IMG/VR virus record: IMGVR_UViG_3300031758_000515
Span: 1-25,563 of that record
DNA from: a virus
Length of the DNA stretch: 25,563 nucleotides
Direction: 5' to 3' (one strand)
Part shown: positions 10,786-25,277 of the stretch, piece by piece
How positions within the stretch are numbered: position 1 is the first letter of the stretch
Layout: every line of letters starts with the position of its first letter
Notes under the pieces: model-generated
Database searches by the model: none
Seen by the model: only the letters and a program-made list of their open reading frames with translations
Told to the model about the DNA's origin: nothing
Translations under genes and position numbers: made by a program

Positions 10786-11159
10786 AACATCGCCAATATT
10801 TAGACCTGCATAGACCTAACTACGAAATGGTGCAGAACGGATATGTAAGGAATATAGATTTAGACATACTAAAAATGTACGAGCATATCTACCGAAAGTA
10901 TATGAGTCCTGATTTTATATTAACAGTATGGTGCAGCCATTGTATCTTTGATATGATTAAACGACTTTACGAATGGTACGACATACAACCCAAAAGTTTA
11001 CCAACAGAAAACAATTTTTATAAAAATGTTGACGTTTCTAAATTAAAAGATATTTCAGACAGGGTTGAAATTAAAGAAACACCTGAAGGAATTGAAGTTA
11101 CTTTAAAACCTGAACCAAAGAAACGTGGACGTAAACCAAAAAATAAAAAGAATGGCTAA
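10776..11159 (+). CDS. Hypothetical protein with CxxC and AT-hook-like tail
   Basis: 127 residues from ATG 10776 (MEIEHRQYLDLHRPNYEMVQ); an open frame runs upstream but there it lies inside the membrane protein gene, so this start with a 10-nt overlap is preferred. The core (DLDILKMYEHIYRKYMSPDF, WCSHCIFDMIKRLYEWY) recurs in flavobacterial phages. A variable linker leads to a basic end, PKKRGRKPKNKKNG, with RGRKPK matching the AT-hook core that binds the minor groove of A/T DNA. Cys-x-x-Cys may bind metal. A DNA-binding role is inferred from the tail only. Confidence 0.7.
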   Translation: MEIEHRQYLDLHRPNYEMVQNGYVRNIDLDILKMYEHIYRKYMSPDFILTVWCSHCIFDMIKRLYEWYDIQPKSLPTENNFYKNVDVSKLKDISDRVEIKETPEGIEVTLKPEPKKRGRKPKNKKNG

Positions 11160-11631
11160 CTTTATTCACCCCACCGCAATCATTGGCGACAACGTAAATA
11201 TCGGAGATGGCAACTACATCGGTCCTTATTGTGTAATAGGCGACAAAGCAGAGCATAAAAAGTTTTGGCAAAAAGAAAAAGGCAAAGTTTACATAGGCGA
11301 TAACAATATTATAACAGGACTTGTAACTATCGATGCAGGTACAGAAGACGTAACCTATATACAGAATAATTGTTTTATAATGAAACACGCACACATAGGA
11401 CACGACTGCTCAATATTTGACAATGTTACAATAAGCTGCGGTGCTAAAATAGGCGGTCACTCAATTATAGAAGAAGGTAGCAATATAGGACTTAACGCAG
11501 TACTACATCAATTTACGCACGTCGGAGAAAATTGTATGGTAGGCGCAAGTGCTTTTCTTAAAGGAGAGGCAAAAGCAAATACTAAATACGCAGGAGTACC
11601 TGCAAGAGAAATAGGTTCAAACATAAGATAA
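11152..11631 (+). CDS. LpxA-like hexapeptide acyltransferase
   Basis: 159 residues from ATG 11152 (MANFIHPTAIIGDNVNIGD), 8 nt inside the previous gene. Hexapeptide repeats [LIV]-G-x-x-x-x build a left-handed beta-helix over most of its length. KHAHIGHDC (His81, His84) aligns with the catalytic AHIAHDC motif of LpxA (His122, His125), which suggests acyl or acetyl transfer to a nucleotide sugar. It lacks the C-terminal helical domain of cellular LpxA (about 262 residues), so it is more like short NeuD/LpxA-type sugar acyltransferases. It leads a three-gene sugar cassette with two glycosyltransferases. Confidence 0.83.
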   Translation: MANFIHPTAIIGDNVNIGDGNYIGPYCVIGDKAEHKKFWQKEKGKVYIGDNNIITGLVTIDAGTEDVTYIQNNCFIMKHAHIGHDCSIFDNVTISCGAKIGGHSIIEEGSNIGLNAVLHQFTHVGENCMVGASAFLKGEAKANTKYAGVPAREIGSNIR

Positions 11632-12314
11632 TGAAAGTAGCAATCTTATTACTCGCACAAAATAGACACGACTTAACGCAGCGTGTAATTAATCATAACT
11701 TCTATAACTCAGGTTATAACGCAGATTGTTTTCTAATAGACAACGGGAGCGACACTCACGAAAACTTTAACTATCCGTTTACGGGTTATGACTTATCAAA
11801 AGAAAAGCGAGGCATAGCAGCAGGAGTTAATGCAGGTTTAAGAATGACAGAGAACTACGATGCCGTTTGTTTGTTAGCTAATGACATTTTGCTACCTGAG
11901 AATTGGTTGTCAAAATGGGTTATGTTTTCTCAACGTGTGTCAAAAACGGGCATTATTGGTATACATTGTGTAGAGGAACTGCCACCAATAGTAGACGGGG
12001 TACATAAGACACATACACCTTTTGGCGATAACTTTATTACTCGAGAACTTATAGACAAGGTTGGCGGTTACAATGAAGCGTATGACCCTTACGGAATGCA
12101 AGATAGAGATTACGGAGAACGAGCAACAATTACAGGCTTTACTAATTACTACCTGCCAGATATGAGGTCAGAACATATAGGACACGATGTTGGCAATGGC
12201 ACGGAATATAGAAGAATGAAAGACCAGAGTTTAGCTCGAGCGCAAAGCGTTTGGGAAAAATATCAAGACATATATCACAACCAAAACAAAATAAGATGCG
12301 AATACTCTGCATAA
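11631..12314 (+). CDS. Glycosyltransferase, GT2-like (GT-A fold)
   Basis: 227 residues. The N terminus MKVAILLLAQNRHDLTQRVI, the FLIDNGSD nucleotide-binding segment (residues 34-41), KEKRGIAAGVNAGL, and LLANDILLPENW (metal-binding DxD-like A-N-D, residues 83-85) are typical of GT2 enzymes. PYGMQDRDYGERA near residue 150 fits the catalytic base region. It transfers a sugar from a nucleotide-sugar to an acceptor that cannot be read from sequence. The ATG overlaps the acyltransferase stop (TAATG); it overlaps the next gene by 19 nt. Confidence 0.82.
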   Translation: MKVAILLLAQNRHDLTQRVINHNFYNSGYNADCFLIDNGSDTHENFNYPFTGYDLSKEKRGIAAGVNAGLRMTENYDAVCLLANDILLPENWLSKWVMFSQRVSKTGIIGIHCVEELPPIVDGVHKTHTPFGDNFITRELIDKVGGYNEAYDPYGMQDRDYGERATITGFTNYYLPDMRSEHIGHDVGNGTEYRRMKDQSLARAQSVWEKYQDIYHNQNKIRCEYSA

Positions 12315-13291
12315 CTTCAGCTAATAGCGGAGTTGGACTGCACCGAATAATGATGCCTATTGTACACTTAGAAAAAGAGTATGCACTTATTACCGATGTG
12401 CTTAATGACGAACTACTTGAGCAAGGGTGGGATATTGTTTTAATGAATAGAATGCTTAACGAAATAAGCGCAGCGCAAATGGACACTTGGAGAACTAAGT
12501 ACGGGTTTAAGTTAGTTGTAGATAATGACGACTATTGGAACTTAGAGCCAAGCCATTTGTTATATCAGCGTTATATTTTAAACAACATACCTGAGCAAAT
12601 TATAAGCTATATGCAAATAGCTGACCTTTGCACTTGCACACACGAAAGGTTAGCAGCAGAAATAAGCAAGTATAATAAGAACGTTCACATATTACCTAAC
12701 GCACTTCCTTACGGACAAGAGCAGTTTATGGATAACAAGACCGAAGATAATAAGGTAAGATTGTTTTGGTCAGGTAGCGGAACGCACGAAAGGGATATTG
12801 AATTATTGAAGCAACCCTTTAAGCGACTGCAAGGAATGAATATAAGAACTGTGATAGCAGGTTACAATGACGGGGAGAAACATATTTGGGATAAAATGAT
12901 TGCAGCTTTCACTTGTGGACTTAAGCTTAACCCTACTATCTACAACTATGCTCGAGTTACAGAATATATGGGTGCTTATACGGACTCCGATATTTCAGTT
13001 ATTCCTTTAGTAGATAACAAGTTTAACGCTATGAAGTCAAACTTAAAGGTATTAGAAACGGCAGCCAAAAAGAACCCTGCGATTGTTAGCTATGTCAATC
13101 CTTATTTAGACCTACCCGTTCACTATGTTAAAAGCCAAAAGGATTGGTACAAACACATCAAAGATTTAGTAAGCGATGCGGATATGCGAAAGGAGAGCGG
13201 AGAAAAGCTTTTTGAGTTTTGCAAAAAGAATTATAACTTTGAGGGTATAAATTTAGACAGAAAGTATATTTATAGTAAACTATGCCAGTAA
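12296..13291 (+). CDS. Glycosyltransferase, GT-B fold (GT4-like)
   Basis: 331 residues from ATG 12296 (MRILCITSANSGVGLHRIMM), which fits the N-terminal Rossmann strand and Gly-rich loop; an upstream in-frame ATG at 12251 would add 15 residues of the overlapping gene. The N-terminal half includes VVDNDDYWNLEPSH and CTHERLAAEISKYNKNVHILPNAL, the second half RLFWSGSGTHERDIELLK and the nucleotide-sugar site FNAMKSNLKVLETAAKKNP. DNDDYW is seen in phage glycosyltransferases of this group. Likely makes or extends a glycan with the GT2 enzyme. The gene is followed by the largest gap of the cassette. Confidence 0.82.
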   Translation: MRILCITSANSGVGLHRIMMPIVHLEKEYALITDVLNDELLEQGWDIVLMNRMLNEISAAQMDTWRTKYGFKLVVDNDDYWNLEPSHLLYQRYILNNIPEQIISYMQIADLCTCTHERLAAEISKYNKNVHILPNALPYGQEQFMDNKTEDNKVRLFWSGSGTHERDIELLKQPFKRLQGMNIRTVIAGYNDGEKHIWDKMIAAFTCGLKLNPTIYNYARVTEYMGAYTDSDISVIPLVDNKFNAMKSNLKVLETAAKKNPAIVSYVNPYLDLPVHYVKSQKDWYKHIKDLVSDADMRKESGEKLFEFCKKNYNFEGINLDRKYIYSKLCQ

Positions 13292-14814: not shown

Positions 14815-15217
14815 GCATAAAGCAATAGAAACACCTGAAATAATGCTTCAGCTATTTACAGAATACTGTGAGTACGCTAAAAGCAATCCTATTAAAGTAC
14901 ACGACTTCGTAGGTAAAGATGGTGACGAAGTTTACAGATTAAGAGAACGACCTTTAACAATAGAAGGCTTTGAGAACTATTGTTATAATCAAGGGGTTAT
15001 AAGCGATTTAGGTAGATACTTTGCAAATTTAGATAATGCTTACGAAGATTTTCGTACCATCTGTTCGCGTATTAAGAAAACAATTAGACAAGACCAAATC
15101 GAAGGCGGTATGGCAGGGGTCTACAATCCAAGCATAACTCAGCGATTAAATAGCTTAGTAGAGAAGTCAGAAAACAAGCACGAAGTAAGTGAGATTAAAA
15201 TAACTTACGATAGATAA
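14807..15217 (+). CDS. terS: Terminase small subunit (gp3-type)
   Basis: 136 residues. The region RPLTIEGFENYCYNQGVISD, then LGRYFANLDNAYEDF and IRQDQIEGGMAGVYNPSITQ, matches the DNA-packaging protein gp3 family of small terminases. It recognises phage DNA and recruits the large subunit. The N-terminal part (MGRHKAIETPEIMLQLFTEY) is the usual DNA-binding helical region. The C terminus is charged. It is directly followed by the large subunit (TAATG overlap at 15215-15219). Confidence 0.87.
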   Translation: MGRHKAIETPEIMLQLFTEYCEYAKSNPIKVHDFVGKDGDEVYRLRERPLTIEGFENYCYNQGVISDLGRYFANLDNAYEDFRTICSRIKKTIRQDQIEGGMAGVYNPSITQRLNSLVEKSENKHEVSEIKITYDR

Positions 15218-16383
15218 TGCAGACAATAGGCTTGAAGTTACATAACCCACACCCTGCGCAAAAGCAAGTAATTGAATGCGATAGTAGGTTTATTGTAATG
15301 ATGGCAGGGAGAAGATTTGGCAAGTCCTTGATTAGCCAAACGATAAGCATAGACACGGCAGTTAATAAAAAGCGAGTAGCTTACATAACACCTACTTACC
15401 AATTAGGCAAGATATTTTTTAAGGAAATAGTAGACCTTTTGCCATTGGAGATATATTCTAAAAACGAAAGCGACCTGGTTATTACTTTCATAACGGGTGG
15501 CAGCATACGTTTTTTTACGGGCGAAAGGTTAGACAATCTTCGTGGTTTAAAGTTCCACTTAGCCGTAATAGACGAGGCTTCCTTTATACCTAACCTTGAA
15601 GATGGGTGGCTAAACTCAATAAGACCTACCTTAACTGACTACAAGGGTAAGGCAATATTCTTATCTACCCCACGAGGCAAGAATTACTTTTATAGCCTAT
15701 ATAGTAAAGCAGAACCCGATTGGCAAAGCTTTAAGTTTACTACATACGATAACCCTTACATTGACCCACAAGAAATAGACGATGCAAGAAGGCAATTGCC
15801 AGAGGTTGTATTTGAGCAAGAGTATATGGCAAACCCTGCCGAGAACGCAGCCAATCCTTTCGGTACTCAGTTTATTAGAAATTGCATACACCCTGTTAGT
15901 ACGATGCCTGTCGTAGCTTTTGGTATTGACTTAGCCAAGTCAGTCGATTGGACAGTTATAGTAGGTTTAGACGAAAACGGAAATGTGGCTTATTTTGACC
16001 GCTTTCAAATGGATTGGCACAATACCAAGCAGAACATCATTAGGCTGCCGAAATGCCCTATCCTTGTCGATTCTACGGGGGTTGGCGACCCTATCCTTGA
16101 GGACTTACAAAGAGAAGGGGTAATGATACAAGGCTTAAAGTTTACAAGTTCAAGTAAGCAGCAGCTAATGGAAGGCTTACAAGCTGCTATACATCAAGGT
16201 AAGATTGGCTATCCTGACGGGATAATCAGCCAGGAGCTTGAAATCTTTGAATACCAATACACCGCAACGGGGGTAAAGTATTCCGCACCTTCAGGCTATC
16301 ACGACGATGCCGTGGTAGCTTTATCATTGGCTTGGCAGAATTTCAGCCTTAAACGTGGCACGGGTAGGTATGCCTTCCTATAA
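15217..16383 (+). CDS. terL: Terminase large subunit
   Basis: 388 residues, on the short side for TerL but with all motifs. ATPase: Walker A-like MAGRRFGKS (29-37), Walker B LAVIDE (Asp119, Glu120), coupling motif LSTPRG (149-154). RNase H-like nuclease: FGIDLAKSVDWTVIVG (Asp238), LVDSTGVGDP (Asp285), YHDDAVVALSLAW (Asp363/Asp364). It pumps DNA into the prohead and cuts it. The next genes are not portal or capsid, which is unusual; the module continues with small genes after a repeat and promoter. Confidence 0.95.
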   Translation: MQTIGLKLHNPHPAQKQVIECDSRFIVMMAGRRFGKSLISQTISIDTAVNKKRVAYITPTYQLGKIFFKEIVDLLPLEIYSKNESDLVITFITGGSIRFFTGERLDNLRGLKFHLAVIDEASFIPNLEDGWLNSIRPTLTDYKGKAIFLSTPRGKNYFYSLYSKAEPDWQSFKFTTYDNPYIDPQEIDDARRQLPEVVFEQEYMANPAENAANPFGTQFIRNCIHPVSTMPVVAFGIDLAKSVDWTVIVGLDENGNVAYFDRFQMDWHNTKQNIIRLPKCPILVDSTGVGDPILEDLQREGVMIQGLKFTSSSKQQLMEGLQAAIHQGKIGYPDGIISQELEIFEYQYTATGVKYSAPSGYHDDAVVALSLAWQNFSLKRGTGRYAFL

Positions 16384-17994: not shown

Positions 17995-18665
17995 CTTGGA
18001 ACGAATTAACAGTTTGGCAGTACCAACAAATATACCCAATAGTTACTAAGCCTGAAAAGGATTGGACTAACTTAGACGTAGAAAGTAAACTTGTAGGTAT
18101 AATCTACAACCTTACAGATACTCAGGTGGATAGCTTAACTATTCAGCAGTTCAATAACCTGAGGGGTACACTAACCTTTTTAGACGATAAGATAGAAGGT
18201 AAGCCTGTTAAGTACACGGAAGTAAACGGCAAACGCTACCGATTCGTTTATGATGTGCAACAAATCAAAGCAGCTCGTTACATTGAGAGCAAAGTATTTA
18301 GCACCGATTTAGTTAGTAATCTACATAAGTTAGCAGCTTCAATGGTAGTACCTCAAAAGAAAACTTGGTACGGCAGATGGGTAGACGAGGAATACAACGC
18401 AGCAAAGCATAGTCAATATGCAGATGACTTACAAGCATCTAATTTTATACACATATACAATTCGGTTGTTTTTTTTTATCAAGTATACAGAAATTGGATA
18501 GAAGTTTCTCGGGGTTATTTGGTAAAGGAGATGATGGCGAAGGGTCTGACACCGAAGTTAGCGCAAGGGGTGGTTCAAACTTTATGCGAGACTTTGGATG
18601 GCAGTATTGCGCCAAATCTGTTGCCGAGTACGAAAATATCAGCGTTAATCAAAGCTATGAATTAA
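17991..18665 (+). CDS. Tail assembly chaperone, unshifted form (G-like)
   Basis: 224 residues starting MTWNELTVWQYQQIYPIVTK. The N-terminal domain (1-160) with ESKLVGIIYNLTDTQVDSLT and KYTEVNGKRYRFVYDVQQIK resembles tail chaperone-type proteins placed upstream of the tape measure in Bacteroidota phages. In frame 0 it continues past a T9 run through SRGYLVKEMMAKGLTPKLAQ to ALIKAMN. A second conserved reading frame begins at the same T run (see the frameshifted form). Tail chaperones coat the tape measure during tail tube assembly. Confidence 0.7.
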   Translation: MTWNELTVWQYQQIYPIVTKPEKDWTNLDVESKLVGIIYNLTDTQVDSLTIQQFNNLRGTLTFLDDKIEGKPVKYTEVNGKRYRFVYDVQQIKAARYIESKVFSTDLVSNLHKLAASMVVPQKKTWYGRWVDEEYNAAKHSQYADDLQASNFIHIYNSVVFFYQVYRNWIEVSRGYLVKEMMAKGLTPKLAQGVVQTLCETLDGSIAPNLLPSTKISALIKAMN

Positions 18666-18748
18666 CAACCTTACACTTCTTAAATACGCTATCTTATCTA
18701 AAGGCGAAAGCTGATTACGATAAGGAGCAACATAGGAAACTTAAATAG
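17991..18748 (+). CDS. Tail assembly chaperone, -1 frameshifted form (GT-like)
   Basis: After about 162 residues in the first frame, a -1 shift in the T9 run (18469-18477) moves to the frame open from 18443 to the TAG at 18746-18748, giving a product of about 252 residues. The added part includes MRDFGWQYCAKSVAEYENIS, LTTLHFLNTLSYLKAKADYD and KEQHRKLK, a helical tail like those of GT extensions. This frame has no ATG before 18584, so it is best explained by frameshifting or transcriptional slippage, as in lambda G/GT. Predicted, not proven. Confidence 0.6.
18469..18477 (+). promoter_or_regulatory. T9 slippery site
   Basis: GTT TTT TTT TAT in the 0 frame gives a run of nine T (18469-18477), which allows tandem slippage by one base at ribosome or RNA polymerase level. 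The only frame that stays open downstream besides frame 0 is -1. It is the longest T run noticed in the window. Confidence 0.65.
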
Positions 18749-20690: not shown

Positions 20691-22741
20691 TGATTAGCAC
20701 AGAAATATACATCGAGGAACAGAAGATAGATTTATTACAAAATTTATCTACCGAGTTTACTTATGCTATTGATGACGTAAGCGACTTTGCAAGTCGTAAT
20801 ACTTCTTTTAGCAAGACGATAAACATACCAGGAACGGCAAACAACAACCTGATATTTGGTTACATCTTCGAACTTAACAACGCTAACAATACAGATAATG
20901 CCTTGCCAAACGTAGGGTATAACTACAACGTAACTAAACAAGCTAACTGCAAAATCTTTATTGATAAGGTGCAGATATTCAAAGGCACTTTACGAATTTT
21001 GGAAATACTTATAGACAAAGAAACTATCGAGTACCAATGTAGTGTAGTAGGAGAGCTTGGCGGGTTTATCAATCAGTTAGGGAATAAGCGTTTAGAAAAT
21101 TTAGATTTTAGCGCATACAACCATACTTATAGTGTAGCAAATATTAGTGGCAGTTGGGATAATCCTGGTGGCTCTGGATATTACTATCCGCTTATTGATT
21201 ACGGGAACGTTAGTACAGGTCAATTCGGAGTAGCTAAAAAGGACTTTCAGTACACAACTTTTAGACCTGCATTGTACGTTAAAGAGTATATAGAGAAAAT
21301 ATTTGAAGGTACAGATTACACATTTGACTGCCCGTTTTTTGATACTCCTTTATTTAAAAGGCTTATCATTCCGCACAACCAAACAAATATTACTGCACTA
21401 AATAATACGAGTTTAAGCGCAACCGCAGACGAGCGGAGAATGAATTTAACAAGCGATTCTTCTGTAAAATATACATTAGTAACTGCAGGTATCTTTACAC
21501 TTGATACCAATAAGGAAGTATTTACTTATGGTGGGGCAAGTATAACAACGAATATTCGACTAACATTAACTGGAACAGTTGTACTTTTTAATACTAACCA
21601 AGCTGACTATTCTGTAATATTAAGAAAAAACGGGGTACAAATAGGAACGCAAAGTTTCAATGCAAATGTTAGACCTTTTATGAGTTGTAATTTCACAGTT
21701 GAAGGTGTTACCTTTAATAACGGAGATACAATGGCAGTAGAGATATTAGGTACTTTTATGGTTATCGATATTGTTTACGGAGAGCTAAGTGTAACAACAA
21801 GCACACCAACGCAGGTTCAAATTAACTTAGGTGAGCAAATTAAAGTTAGTGAAACGATTCCTAAAGGTATATTCCAAAGAGATTTCTTTTTGAGTGTTGT
21901 TAAAATGTTTAATCTTTATGTTTATGAAAATAAGTTTAATGATAAGGAACTTGTTATTAGCCCGTATGTCGATTTCTATCCTACTACATCGGCTACCGCT
22001 TTAGATTGGACTAACAAGGTAGATAGAGCTAAGCCTATTAGTATTAAGCCAATGAGTGAAGTTAATGCTCGTTATTACGATTATAAGTTTAAACCAGACA
22101 ATGACTTTTATGGCGAAAACTATCGCAAGAAGTACACCGAAGGTTATGGCGATTTTATATACGATACAGAGTTTGACTATGTAAAAGAAACAGACAAGTT
22201 AGAAGTTATATTTGCTGCATCTGTATTGTATCAAGCAACAGGTCAAGACAAAGTATTCCCTGCTATTTATAAGAAGTCAAATAGCAATAGCGCAGAAGAT
22301 AGAATGGATAGTATTATACGCATAATGCAAACCAAGAAAATTACAAGCGTTAATAGTTGGAACATTATGAATACTACAACTGTGTTAGGTAGTTATACAA
22401 GCTATGGTTATGCAGGACACTTAGATAGTCCTATTAATTCAACAGTAGATATTAATTTCGGTGCGCCTAAAGAAGTACAATTTGCACCTGCTAATTTTAC
22501 TGAAAACAATTTATTTAGAGATTATCATAGTTCTTATATTTTAGAAATCACAAATAAAGATAGTAAGCTATTATCTTGCTTTGGACTTTTAGATATAGTA
22601 GACATATTTAATTTAGATTTTAGCAAGTATGTATATATAGACGGGGTATTGTTTAGGCTTAACAAAGTAGAGAACTTCAACCCGATGGAATACAATACAA
22701 CTAAACTTTCATTTCTTAAAGTAATAGAAACAAGATACTAA
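20690..22741 (+). CDS. Large tail structural protein, baseplate-like
   Basis: 683 residues. The N terminus YAIDDVSDFASRNTSFSKTI followed by PGTANNN is a hallmark of large tail proteins in Bacteroidota phages. It is beta-rich and has a hub-like N-terminal region (about 1-140), a central G/N/T-rich segment with YTLVTAGIFTLDTNKE, and a C-terminal half (EQIKVSETIPKGIFQRDFFL, MFNLYVYENKF) like baseplate hub domains. The order structural protein, large tail protein, tape measure is reversed with respect to siphophages such as lambda. Not an enzyme as far as seen. Confidence 0.72.
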   Translation: MISTEIYIEEQKIDLLQNLSTEFTYAIDDVSDFASRNTSFSKTINIPGTANNNLIFGYIFELNNANNTDNALPNVGYNYNVTKQANCKIFIDKVQIFKGTLRILEILIDKETIEYQCSVVGELGGFINQLGNKRLENLDFSAYNHTYSVANISGSWDNPGGSGYYYPLIDYGNVSTGQFGVAKKDFQYTTFRPALYVKEYIEKIFEGTDYTFDCPFFDTPLFKRLIIPHNQTNITALNNTSLSATADERRMNLTSDSSVKYTLVTAGIFTLDTNKEVFTYGGASITTNIRLTLTGTVVLFNTNQADYSVILRKNGVQIGTQSFNANVRPFMSCNFTVEGVTFNNGDTMAVEILGTFMVIDIVYGELSVTTSTPTQVQINLGEQIKVSETIPKGIFQRDFFLSVVKMFNLYVYENKFNDKELVISPYVDFYPTTSATALDWTNKVDRAKPISIKPMSEVNARYYDYKFKPDNDFYGENYRKKYTEGYGDFIYDTEFDYVKETDKLEVIFAASVLYQATGQDKVFPAIYKKSNSNSAEDRMDSIIRIMQTKKITSVNSWNIMNTTTVLGSYTSYGYAGHLDSPINSTVDINFGAPKEVQFAPANFTENNLFRDYHSSYILEITNKDSKLLSCFGLLDIVDIFNLDFSKYVYIDGVLFRLNKVENFNPMEYNTTKLSFLKVIETRY

Positions 22742-24657
22742 TGGCACAAGAGAACGTAGGTATAAATATAACAGTAGGCGGTAATCAAGACCAAGCCTTA
22801 GGCTCGTTAAAAGCGCAGTTAAGAGAAGCAACGGCAGAAGTAACAAAGCTATCTGAACAATTTGGTGCGAGTAGCAAGGAAGCCGTAGGGGCAGCAAAGA
22901 GGGCAGCAGAACTTAAAGATGCAATAGGAGATGCTAAAAGTTTAATTGATGCCTTCAATCCAGATGCTAAGTTTAAGGCTTTAACTGCTTCTCTTAGTGG
23001 TGTAGCAGGTGGCTTTAGTGCTTTGCAAGGTGCAGTAGGTTTATTCGGTAAAGAGAATGAGGACTTACAAAAAACCTTATTAAAAGTACAATCTGCTATG
23101 GCTTTATCTCAAGGCTTACAAGCAGTAGGGGAAAGTATCGATAGCTTTAAACAATTAGGTACAGTTATTAAAACGCAGGTTGTAGGTGCATTCTCTACTT
23201 TGCGTGGAGCGATTATTGCAACAGGTATCGGAGCACTTGCAGTTGTTTTAGGTTTAGTAGTAGCAAACTTTGACAAGGTTAAAAAGGCGGTGCTTGATAT
23301 GTTTCCTGGTCTTGGAAAGTTAGCATCTTTTATAGGAAATACTATTAATGCCTTTACTGATTTGATTGGTGTAACAAATGAAGCAACAAGGGCAGAAGCA
23401 GCAAGACAAGCAACATATACTAAAGCAGCAGCAGGAACGAAAATAGTTAATGAAGGTATTGATAGACAGATAAAACTATTACAAGCACAAGGTGCAGAGC
23501 AAAGTAAAATAGACGAACTTAGAAAGCAATCAGTACAAAATGAATTAAACGACCTTAAAAAAGCAGCAGACCAAAAAGGTATTTTATATGGCGACCAAGC
23601 TAAAAAGTATAAAGACCTTCAAAATGAATTAAAGATTATTGATGCTACTGCGCAAAAAACAAGACAAGAAGAACAGAAAAAAAGTGCAACTTCTGGTAAT
23701 AAATATGCAGAAGATAGGAAACAAAAAGAAAAGGCAGATGCTAAAGAAAGAGCTGATGCAGAAAAAGAAGCCTTACAAAAACTATCTGATTTAAGAAATG
23801 AATTATTCTTATCTACTTTTAAAGACGAAAACGAAAAGAAAAAAGCAGAGCTTAACCTTGCATTCATTAAAGAAAAAGACGAACTTTTAGCTAATACTAA
23901 GATTACCGAAGATACAAGAAATCAATTAATACTTGCAGCAAGGCTTAAATTAAATGCTGATTTAGATGCAATAGCAGCAGCAGAAAAAGAAAAGAAAGCA
24001 AAAGCAGATATTATAATGCTTGAAGAAGCAGAGGAGCAAATAGAAATAAATAATGAAAATGAATATGCTGTATTACAAGCTGACATAGCTAAAAAAAATA
24101 AGCTAAATGAAGATGCAAGAAACGCTGAATTACAAGCTGACATATCTTTACAAAATGCTAAATTTGAAGCAGCATCTGCAGGTCTGAACTTACTATCAAC
24201 TCTTGCAGGAGAAAATGAAAAGATTGCAAATGCAATATTTGTAATCGATAAGGCTATGGCTATTGCTAAAATTGTTGTAGATACTCAAAGAGAAATAGCG
24301 GGTTATTATGCAGCCAATGCAATATTTGGTGCAGCAGGTGTGGCAATAGCAACTAAACAAGCATTGGTTGCTAAGATAAGAGCAGGTATCGGTATTGCTT
24401 CGATTGCAGGTACAACTATTGCAAAGTTCAAAGGGGGTGGCGCAGCAGGTGGTCCACAAGCAGGTGGAGCAGCACCAAGCGTTTCAGCAGGAGCACCATT
24501 AGCACCACCACAACCACAAGCACAAACAACAACTTTAGATAGCCAATCTATTAACGCTATTGGTGCGCAAGTTCCTAAGGCTTATGTTGTAGAGAGCGAA
24601 TTAACTCGTACACAAAAGCGTATTGCTGAATTTAGAGAAAGGGCAAGATTCGGTTAA
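22741..24657 (+). CDS. Tape measure protein
   Basis: 638 residues. Long helical coiled-coil stretches (LGSLKAQLREATAEVTKLSE, KQSVQNELNDLKKAADQKG and the K/E/A-rich 310-480 region), a hydrophobic segment of 157-175 (AIIATGIGALAVVLGLVVA), and a G/A/P/Q-rich low-complexity region near 560-605 before a helical tail. This is the usual tape measure layout, which sets tail length and can help DNA entry. The size points to a moderately short tail compared with tape measures over 1000 residues. Starts on the TAATG of the previous stop. Confidence 0.88.
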   Translation: MAQENVGINITVGGNQDQALGSLKAQLREATAEVTKLSEQFGASSKEAVGAAKRAAELKDAIGDAKSLIDAFNPDAKFKALTASLSGVAGGFSALQGAVGLFGKENEDLQKTLLKVQSAMALSQGLQAVGESIDSFKQLGTVIKTQVVGAFSTLRGAIIATGIGALAVVLGLVVANFDKVKKAVLDMFPGLGKLASFIGNTINAFTDLIGVTNEATRAEAARQATYTKAAAGTKIVNEGIDRQIKLLQAQGAEQSKIDELRKQSVQNELNDLKKAADQKGILYGDQAKKYKDLQNELKIIDATAQKTRQEEQKKSATSGNKYAEDRKQKEKADAKERADAEKEALQKLSDLRNELFLSTFKDENEKKKAELNLAFIKEKDELLANTKITEDTRNQLILAARLKLNADLDAIAAAEKEKKAKADIIMLEEAEEQIEINNENEYAVLQADIAKKNKLNEDARNAELQADISLQNAKFEAASAGLNLLSTLAGENEKIANAIFVIDKAMAIAKIVVDTQREIAGYYAANAIFGAAGVAIATKQALVAKIRAGIGIASIAGTTIAKFKGGGAAGGPQAGGAAPSVSAGAPLAPPQPQAQTTTLDSQSINAIGAQVPKAYVVESELTRTQKRIAEFRERARFG

Positions 24658-24692: not shown

Positions 24693-25277
24693 ATGGACTT
24701 ACCTGTTTATTTATTAGACATTAGCGAGGATATGAATGACGATGCCGAAGTGGATTACGTGGCATTGGTAGACAAACCTGCTATTCAAAAGAATTGGAAT
24801 GCCTTTAAAAACCAACAACGCTTTGAAGTCGTTAGCGAAGATAAGCGCATTATTTCTGGACCTCTTATGCTTGCTGACGTACCTATCTTTCGCAGCGATG
24901 CTACTTACGGCGATTACTATGTGGTGTTCTCTAAGGATACTATTTTTAAGATTGCTCAAAAGTTCTTCAAAAGAGGCTACCAGTCAAATGTAAACTTGAT
25001 GCACTCACCTAATGCACAAGTAGAAGGTGTTACAATGTTTGAGAGCTTTATTACAGACGAGAGCAGAGGTATCTTACCAATGAAAGGGTTTGAAGATGCA
25101 CCCGACGGGTCTTGGTTCGGTAGCTTTAAAGTAGATAACGACGACGTTTGGAGGGATGTTAAAGAGGGTAAATTTAAAGGCTTTAGTGTAGAAGGCTTGT
25201 TTACTTACAAGACAAAACCTACCAAAGAACAAGAACTTATGAATGCAATAAAGGAAATATTGCAGAGGGTTAAATGA
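24693..25277 (+). CDS. Prohead protease, XkdF type (Peptidase_S78_2)
   Basis: 194 residues. DKRIISGPLMLADVPIFR, YYVVFSKDTIFKIAQKFF, VNLMHSP (His104) and FKGFSVEGLF (Ser165) are the family's landmarks, with His and Ser as likely catalytic residues. These enzymes process the scaffold and capsid in head maturation. It sits 35 nt after the tape measure gene and precedes a scaffold-like gene, so the head module begins here and runs off the right edge. N-terminal 30 residues are acidic and variable. Confidence 0.85.
   Translation: MDLPVYLLDISEDMNDDAEVDYVALVDKPAIQKNWNAFKNQQRFEVVSEDKRIISGPLMLADVPIFRSDATYGDYYVVFSKDTIFKIAQKFFKRGYQSNVNLMHSPNAQVEGVTMFESFITDESRGILPMKGFEDAPDGSWFGSFKVDNDDVWRDVKEGKFKGFSVEGLFTYKTKPTKEQELMNAIKEILQRVK

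Follow-up and report, generated by a model that had tools for sequence, protein, structure and literature searches.

Frameshifting in tail chaperone genes is textbook ribosomal recoding. A downstream stimulatory RNA structure is frequent, not obligatory, in programmed −1 ribosomal frameshifting, and the slip site of phage P2 E/E′ is T_TTT_TTG. Programmed transcriptional slippage is marked by transcripts that vary in run length. In lambda G/GT and the HK97-type systems, a gene upstream of the tape measure gene yields a short product and a −1 fusion carrying a C-terminal domain. Ribosomal shifting is the mechanism described for tail chaperone frameshifts (PMC5009743), with 6–7% frameshifting measured in HK97-type tail chaperones (PMC3711429). 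In vivo, RNA polymerase slippage is reported to be efficient on runs of nine A or T, a length that fits the 9–10 bp RNA:DNA hybrid (PMC5009743). Selection against such runs also sets in at nine in a large share of bacterial genomes (PMC1088944), and insertions climb exponentially with run length in E. coli and Buchnera (PMC5574713). Runs of at least nine A or T open a second frame in bacterial Thermus dnaX, IS elements, and Shigella type III genes, which are not phage tail genes and for which slippage has been measured. The G/GT principle is already known; below we describe a viral locus that resembles it in architecture.

The analysis concerns a viral record, hereafter the window, that is 25,563 bases long. 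A sequence-only reading of it had proposed that a second open frame, lacking an early ATG, joins the first at nine T's, and both elements were borne out. The −1 frame is open from stop to stop with its first in-frame ATG at 18584, and it meets the zero frame at the only run of nine or more T or A in the window, read GTT TTT TTT TAT in frame 0 (Table 1). Shifting once by −1, or inserting one U into the mRNA, links A residues 1–162 to a 90-residue extension, B, that ends in FGWQYCAKSVAEYENI...LNTLSYLKAKADYDKEQHRKLK.

Table 1. Features of the two-frame locus and of the flanking module genes in the window
Feature	Position	Strand	Basis
Terminase large subunit (TerL), upstream module anchor	15217..16383	+	Pfam PF03237 and PF17289 above cut-off
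ORF A, frame-0 product, G-like, 224 aa	17991..18665	+	ATG 17991, stop 18665
−1 frame, open stop to stop	18443..18748	+	Open-frame reading
T9 slip run	18469..18477	+	Sequence; frame-0 reading
U_UUU_UUU heptamer inside T9	18470-18476	+	X_XXY_YYZ slip heptamer, zero frame
B, −1 extension of ~90 residues, T-like domain, C-terminal	18478..18748	+	−1-frame variation; predicted structure
Dual-coding overlap, A and B frames	18478..18665	+	Substitutions constrained in both frames
Tape measure protein (probable), downstream, same module	22741..24657	+	phrog_1538, E=2.1e-5

Searches of IMG/VR returned 224 stretches with the A query and 105 with the B query. The close-relative set comprises 91 distinct full-length versions drawn from 370 loci, many of which come from contigs present in overlapping copies. 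In all 91, T9 is invariant, both frames are open, and the A start keeps a fixed spacing to both the T run and the B stop; the frame-0 stop varies among five positions. Upstream of the run, third-position variation in frame 0 is 0.335 vs. 0.06–0.10; past the A stop, third-position variation in the −1 frame is 0.338 vs. 0.03–0.04; and within the overlap, variation has no dominant codon position. Substitutions in the overlap that are silent in both frames occur at 3.4 times expectation, those silent in A only at 1.13, those silent in B only at 1.33, and those silent in neither at 0.77. Where only B is read, substitutions that the A reading alone would leave silent drop to 0.18. Together, the sorting of silent and nonsilent substitutions and the third-position variation indicate protein-coding constraint on both frames, with the frame-0 constraint persisting downstream of the run.

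The open state of the −1 frame is improbable by chance: When frame-0 codons were resampled synonymously, the mean probability of an open −1 frame across the overlap was 0.006 per genome, and the frame is open there in 74/74 diverse representatives. The third frame meets a stop ~10–21 codons past the run in the close relatives, so slips in the other direction would yield short tails only. The sequence-only reading was exposed to refutation by relatives with a broken −1 frame or without the run; none of either kind occurred among the relatives sampled, and the claim withstood this check. Because both frames and the run are conserved, programmed −1 access at T9 is strongly supported from sequence, and production of a fusion protein is its probable consequence. 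Ordinary expression would give A, 224 aa, and part of the expression would switch to the −1 frame within the T run, giving A residues 1–162 plus B, ~252 aa.

Conservation of the run extends to codon choice. In 125 distinct contexts, the pair TTT TTT is preceded by GTT, CTT, ATT, or TTT and followed by a codon with T in first place, for Tyr, Trp, Phe, or Leu (TTG only). A synonymous codon interrupting the run is used in 0 of these 125 contexts; outside the run, the same genes use TTT for 75% of Phe, GTT for 37% of Val, ATT for 38% of Ile, and CTT for 16% of Leu. Elsewhere in 376 kb of the relatives' loci, T runs of nine or more number 14. An IMG/VR-wide search with a pattern combining a slip site with final C and a common downstream sequence returned 111 stretches, and ten T's precede the C in all 50 distinct chaperone-type contexts (two of the 50 recognized by inspection). 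Among these chaperone-type contexts, a U_UUU_UUC slip site (Z=C) with fewer than nine T's before the C was not found with the searched pattern in IMG/VR. The total is 150/150 distinct short contexts with at least nine T's, which share descent and are therefore not 150 independent events. Variants with T10 and T12 preserve the −1 relation through codon changes.

Remote relatives tie the family to cultured phages. Queried directly with A and B from the window, cultured phages gave no match, and two bacterial genome scans yielded no relatives. A divergent homologue used as query led to the cultured Nonlabens (Persicivirga) phages P12024S and P12024L at 24.7% identity and E=0.09, a weak match if taken alone. 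PHROG 32199, which holds the A-like gene of these phages, matches divergent members of the window's family (E=5e-5). The A-like gene adjoins TerL, directly after it, and carries TTTTTTTTTATCA, with T9-ATCA, at the same codons; its −1 frame is open through the next annotated ORF. The arrangement is that of the IMG/VR relatives—an N-terminal ORF, nine or more consecutive T's, and a C-terminal domain in the −1 frame—and the two ORFs (genes 38–39 in P12024S numbering), which are remote homologues, most likely form a single two-product gene whose frames meet at T9. They differ from the window's family in being annotated as two ORFs and in their short frame-0 tail of 28 codons; the family's tail usually runs ~57–71 codons past the slip site, and the datasets of PMC10885494 average 26–36 nt. 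The two halves (JQ823122.1 23136-23830; L381:5980-6674) are annotated as separate hypothetical proteins and assigned to PHROGs 32199 and 38404, two families that carry no functional annotation.

A scan from the P12024S/L gene recovered 63 loci at 25–99% identity, all with the run and, unless truncated, with a −1 extension bearing a motif such as WGWYSSIYALAKGD. Because FFYHLGND fell within one of the six probes, we repeated the scan with the extension domain alone, outside the run. Among the best 80 of at least 580 relatives, the junction carries T9 in 47, T10 in 31, and T12 in 1; the remaining locus begins inside the run at a contig end, and none of the 80 has fewer than nine T's. The C-terminal domain lies in the −1 frame in every locus sampled. 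One sub-lineage (L526–L636) has an extra Phe, always NTT TTT TTT TTC, with exactly ten T's before the C. The two-product gene belongs to phages related to Flavobacteriia phages. Separately, the gene after TerL in Elizabethkingia phage TCUEAP1 (L380:2164-2706, 180 aa) has a single-frame end that resembles the B domain by eye, at 29% identity to another alignment row, and is possibly a version without the frame change; this likeness carries no weight in the argument.

How the −1 frame is entered is a matter of weighing; every slippage model requires a T run. Transcriptional slippage at a pure T run, suggested by the sequence-only reading, is favored by a run that never falls below nine but is unproven, with U_UUU_UUU lying within the run. 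Programmed −1 ribosomal frameshifting on that heptamer, the process used by lambda G/GT and further tail chaperones, would yield the same fusion and is a possible, though less probable, route. It would account for a canonical X_XXY_YYZ heptamer conserved in the right frame, invariant wobble positions in the slip site, and a frame relation that is strictly −1 across all loci, and it has the tail chaperone precedents cited above. Seven T's suffice for such a heptamer, yet 7 or 8 occur in no locus, and U_UUU_UUC never substitutes, though C would be synonymous in both frames before Tyr. A downstream RNA hairpin or folding signal was likewise not found (mean z ~−0.2 across 74 diverse sequences, not surpassing control windows, with pseudoknot-free folding), and U_UUU_UUU is reported to shift much less readily in E. 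coli than A_AAA_AAG does (PMC5009743). Because of the strict minimum of nine T's, the missing Z=C version, and the absent folding signal, we favor polymerase slippage. The outer two T's may be held by the protein sequence, with hydrophobic residues before the heptamer and Tyr, Trp, Leu, or Phe after it, so this is a preference and not proof. The frame change would then be mainly RNA polymerase slippage that adds one extra U to the mRNA, followed by normal translation. We consider it moderately probable that this is a two-product gene for a G/GT-type chaperone operating mainly by RNA polymerase rather than ribosomal slippage. With slightly less confidence, we extend this to a large tailed-phage group including Flavobacteriia phages, which would set the short/long chaperone ratio across remote lineages by letting RNA polymerase slip on an obligatory stretch of nine or more T's.

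Two readings would dispense with programmed slippage. B might be a separate gene with its own start, as P12024S/L are annotated, and the window offers a TTG at 18494 besides the ATG noted above. In the interval from the run to the conserved domain motif, however, ATG is absent in 59/74 diverse representatives and ATG, GTG, and TTG are all absent in 45/74; the window-family TTG reads CTG in some relatives, and the ATG is replaced by Ile in another. With start codons missing in most diverse representatives and the T run left unexplained, we reject an independent start of B as very improbable. Homopolymers are also error-prone and mutable, which would suit either a run that is an artifact of sequencing or assembly or a phase-variable tract acting as the switch of one long gene. 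Against this, the register is identical in many independent assemblies and one cultured phage, the T10/T12 variants retain their −1 relation, the frames are joined in no sampled locus, and frame 0 is constrained past the run too. The same register across assemblies and the constraint on both frames lead us to reject error and phase variation alike, as the least credible of the explanations considered. Programmed slippage at the run remains the preferred explanation.

The assignment to tail assembly is contextual. Two overlapping frames, the second entered near the 3′ part of the first, and a tail-module position upstream of the tape measure gene are features of G/GT-type genes, and the locus has both. 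Gene order in the window runs TerL, A/B, three ORFs, and tape measure, the last 4 kb downstream; the tape measure gene likewise follows A/B in the contig of a relative (L399). Searches of Pfam, PHROG, and NCBIfam returned no family naming A or B. The predicted structure of A is poor (pLDDT 55), and B is predicted to form a helical pair (pLDDT 82–86 there), for which the strong matches in a fold search were all to unnamed phage proteins; named tail chaperones reached only E ~2. The "tail chaperone" label given from sequence alone therefore stands on its G/GT-like architecture and its place between TerL and tape measure, and lacks a curated family match. Since the two-product architecture and gene order fit and no curated family confirms them, we infer a G/GT-type tail assembly chaperone role; the fusion would act between the tape measure and tail tube proteins. 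Chaperones of this type bind both of those proteins and do not form part of the virion.

The proposed likeness to lambda G/GT holds for the conserved frames and the architecture and does not extend to sequence: Compared with lambda G/GT and HK97-type genes, the family has no detectable sequence relation and has a pure T run of at least nine. P2 E/E′ shares a T-rich slip site and a long overlap in a tail gene, but its heptamer ends in G and its run is shorter than nine, unlike in this family. As far as the searched literature shows, with few subscription papers covered, a deep lineage in which a pure run of nine or more T's is obligatory and accompanies a long dual-coding overlap is new. If the proposal is true, a lineage that keeps nine or more T's unbroken would offer a natural case of RNA polymerase setting the same product ratio, a transcriptional counterpart of the lambda G/GT switch. 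For annotation, ORFs listed as two separate unknowns and split over two PHROG families are most likely one two-product gene.

Other parts of the window were also noted. A head-maturation-type protease (Peptidase_S78_2/XkdF-like; 24693-25277) follows the tape measure gene, and head genes thus appear to lie downstream of tail genes. A tail-fibre-like ORF with repeated ERMRITSGGNVGIGT units occupies 116-1075, and the interval 11125-13291 holds, by eye, a hexapeptide-repeat acyltransferase-like ORF and two glycosyltransferase-like ORFs.
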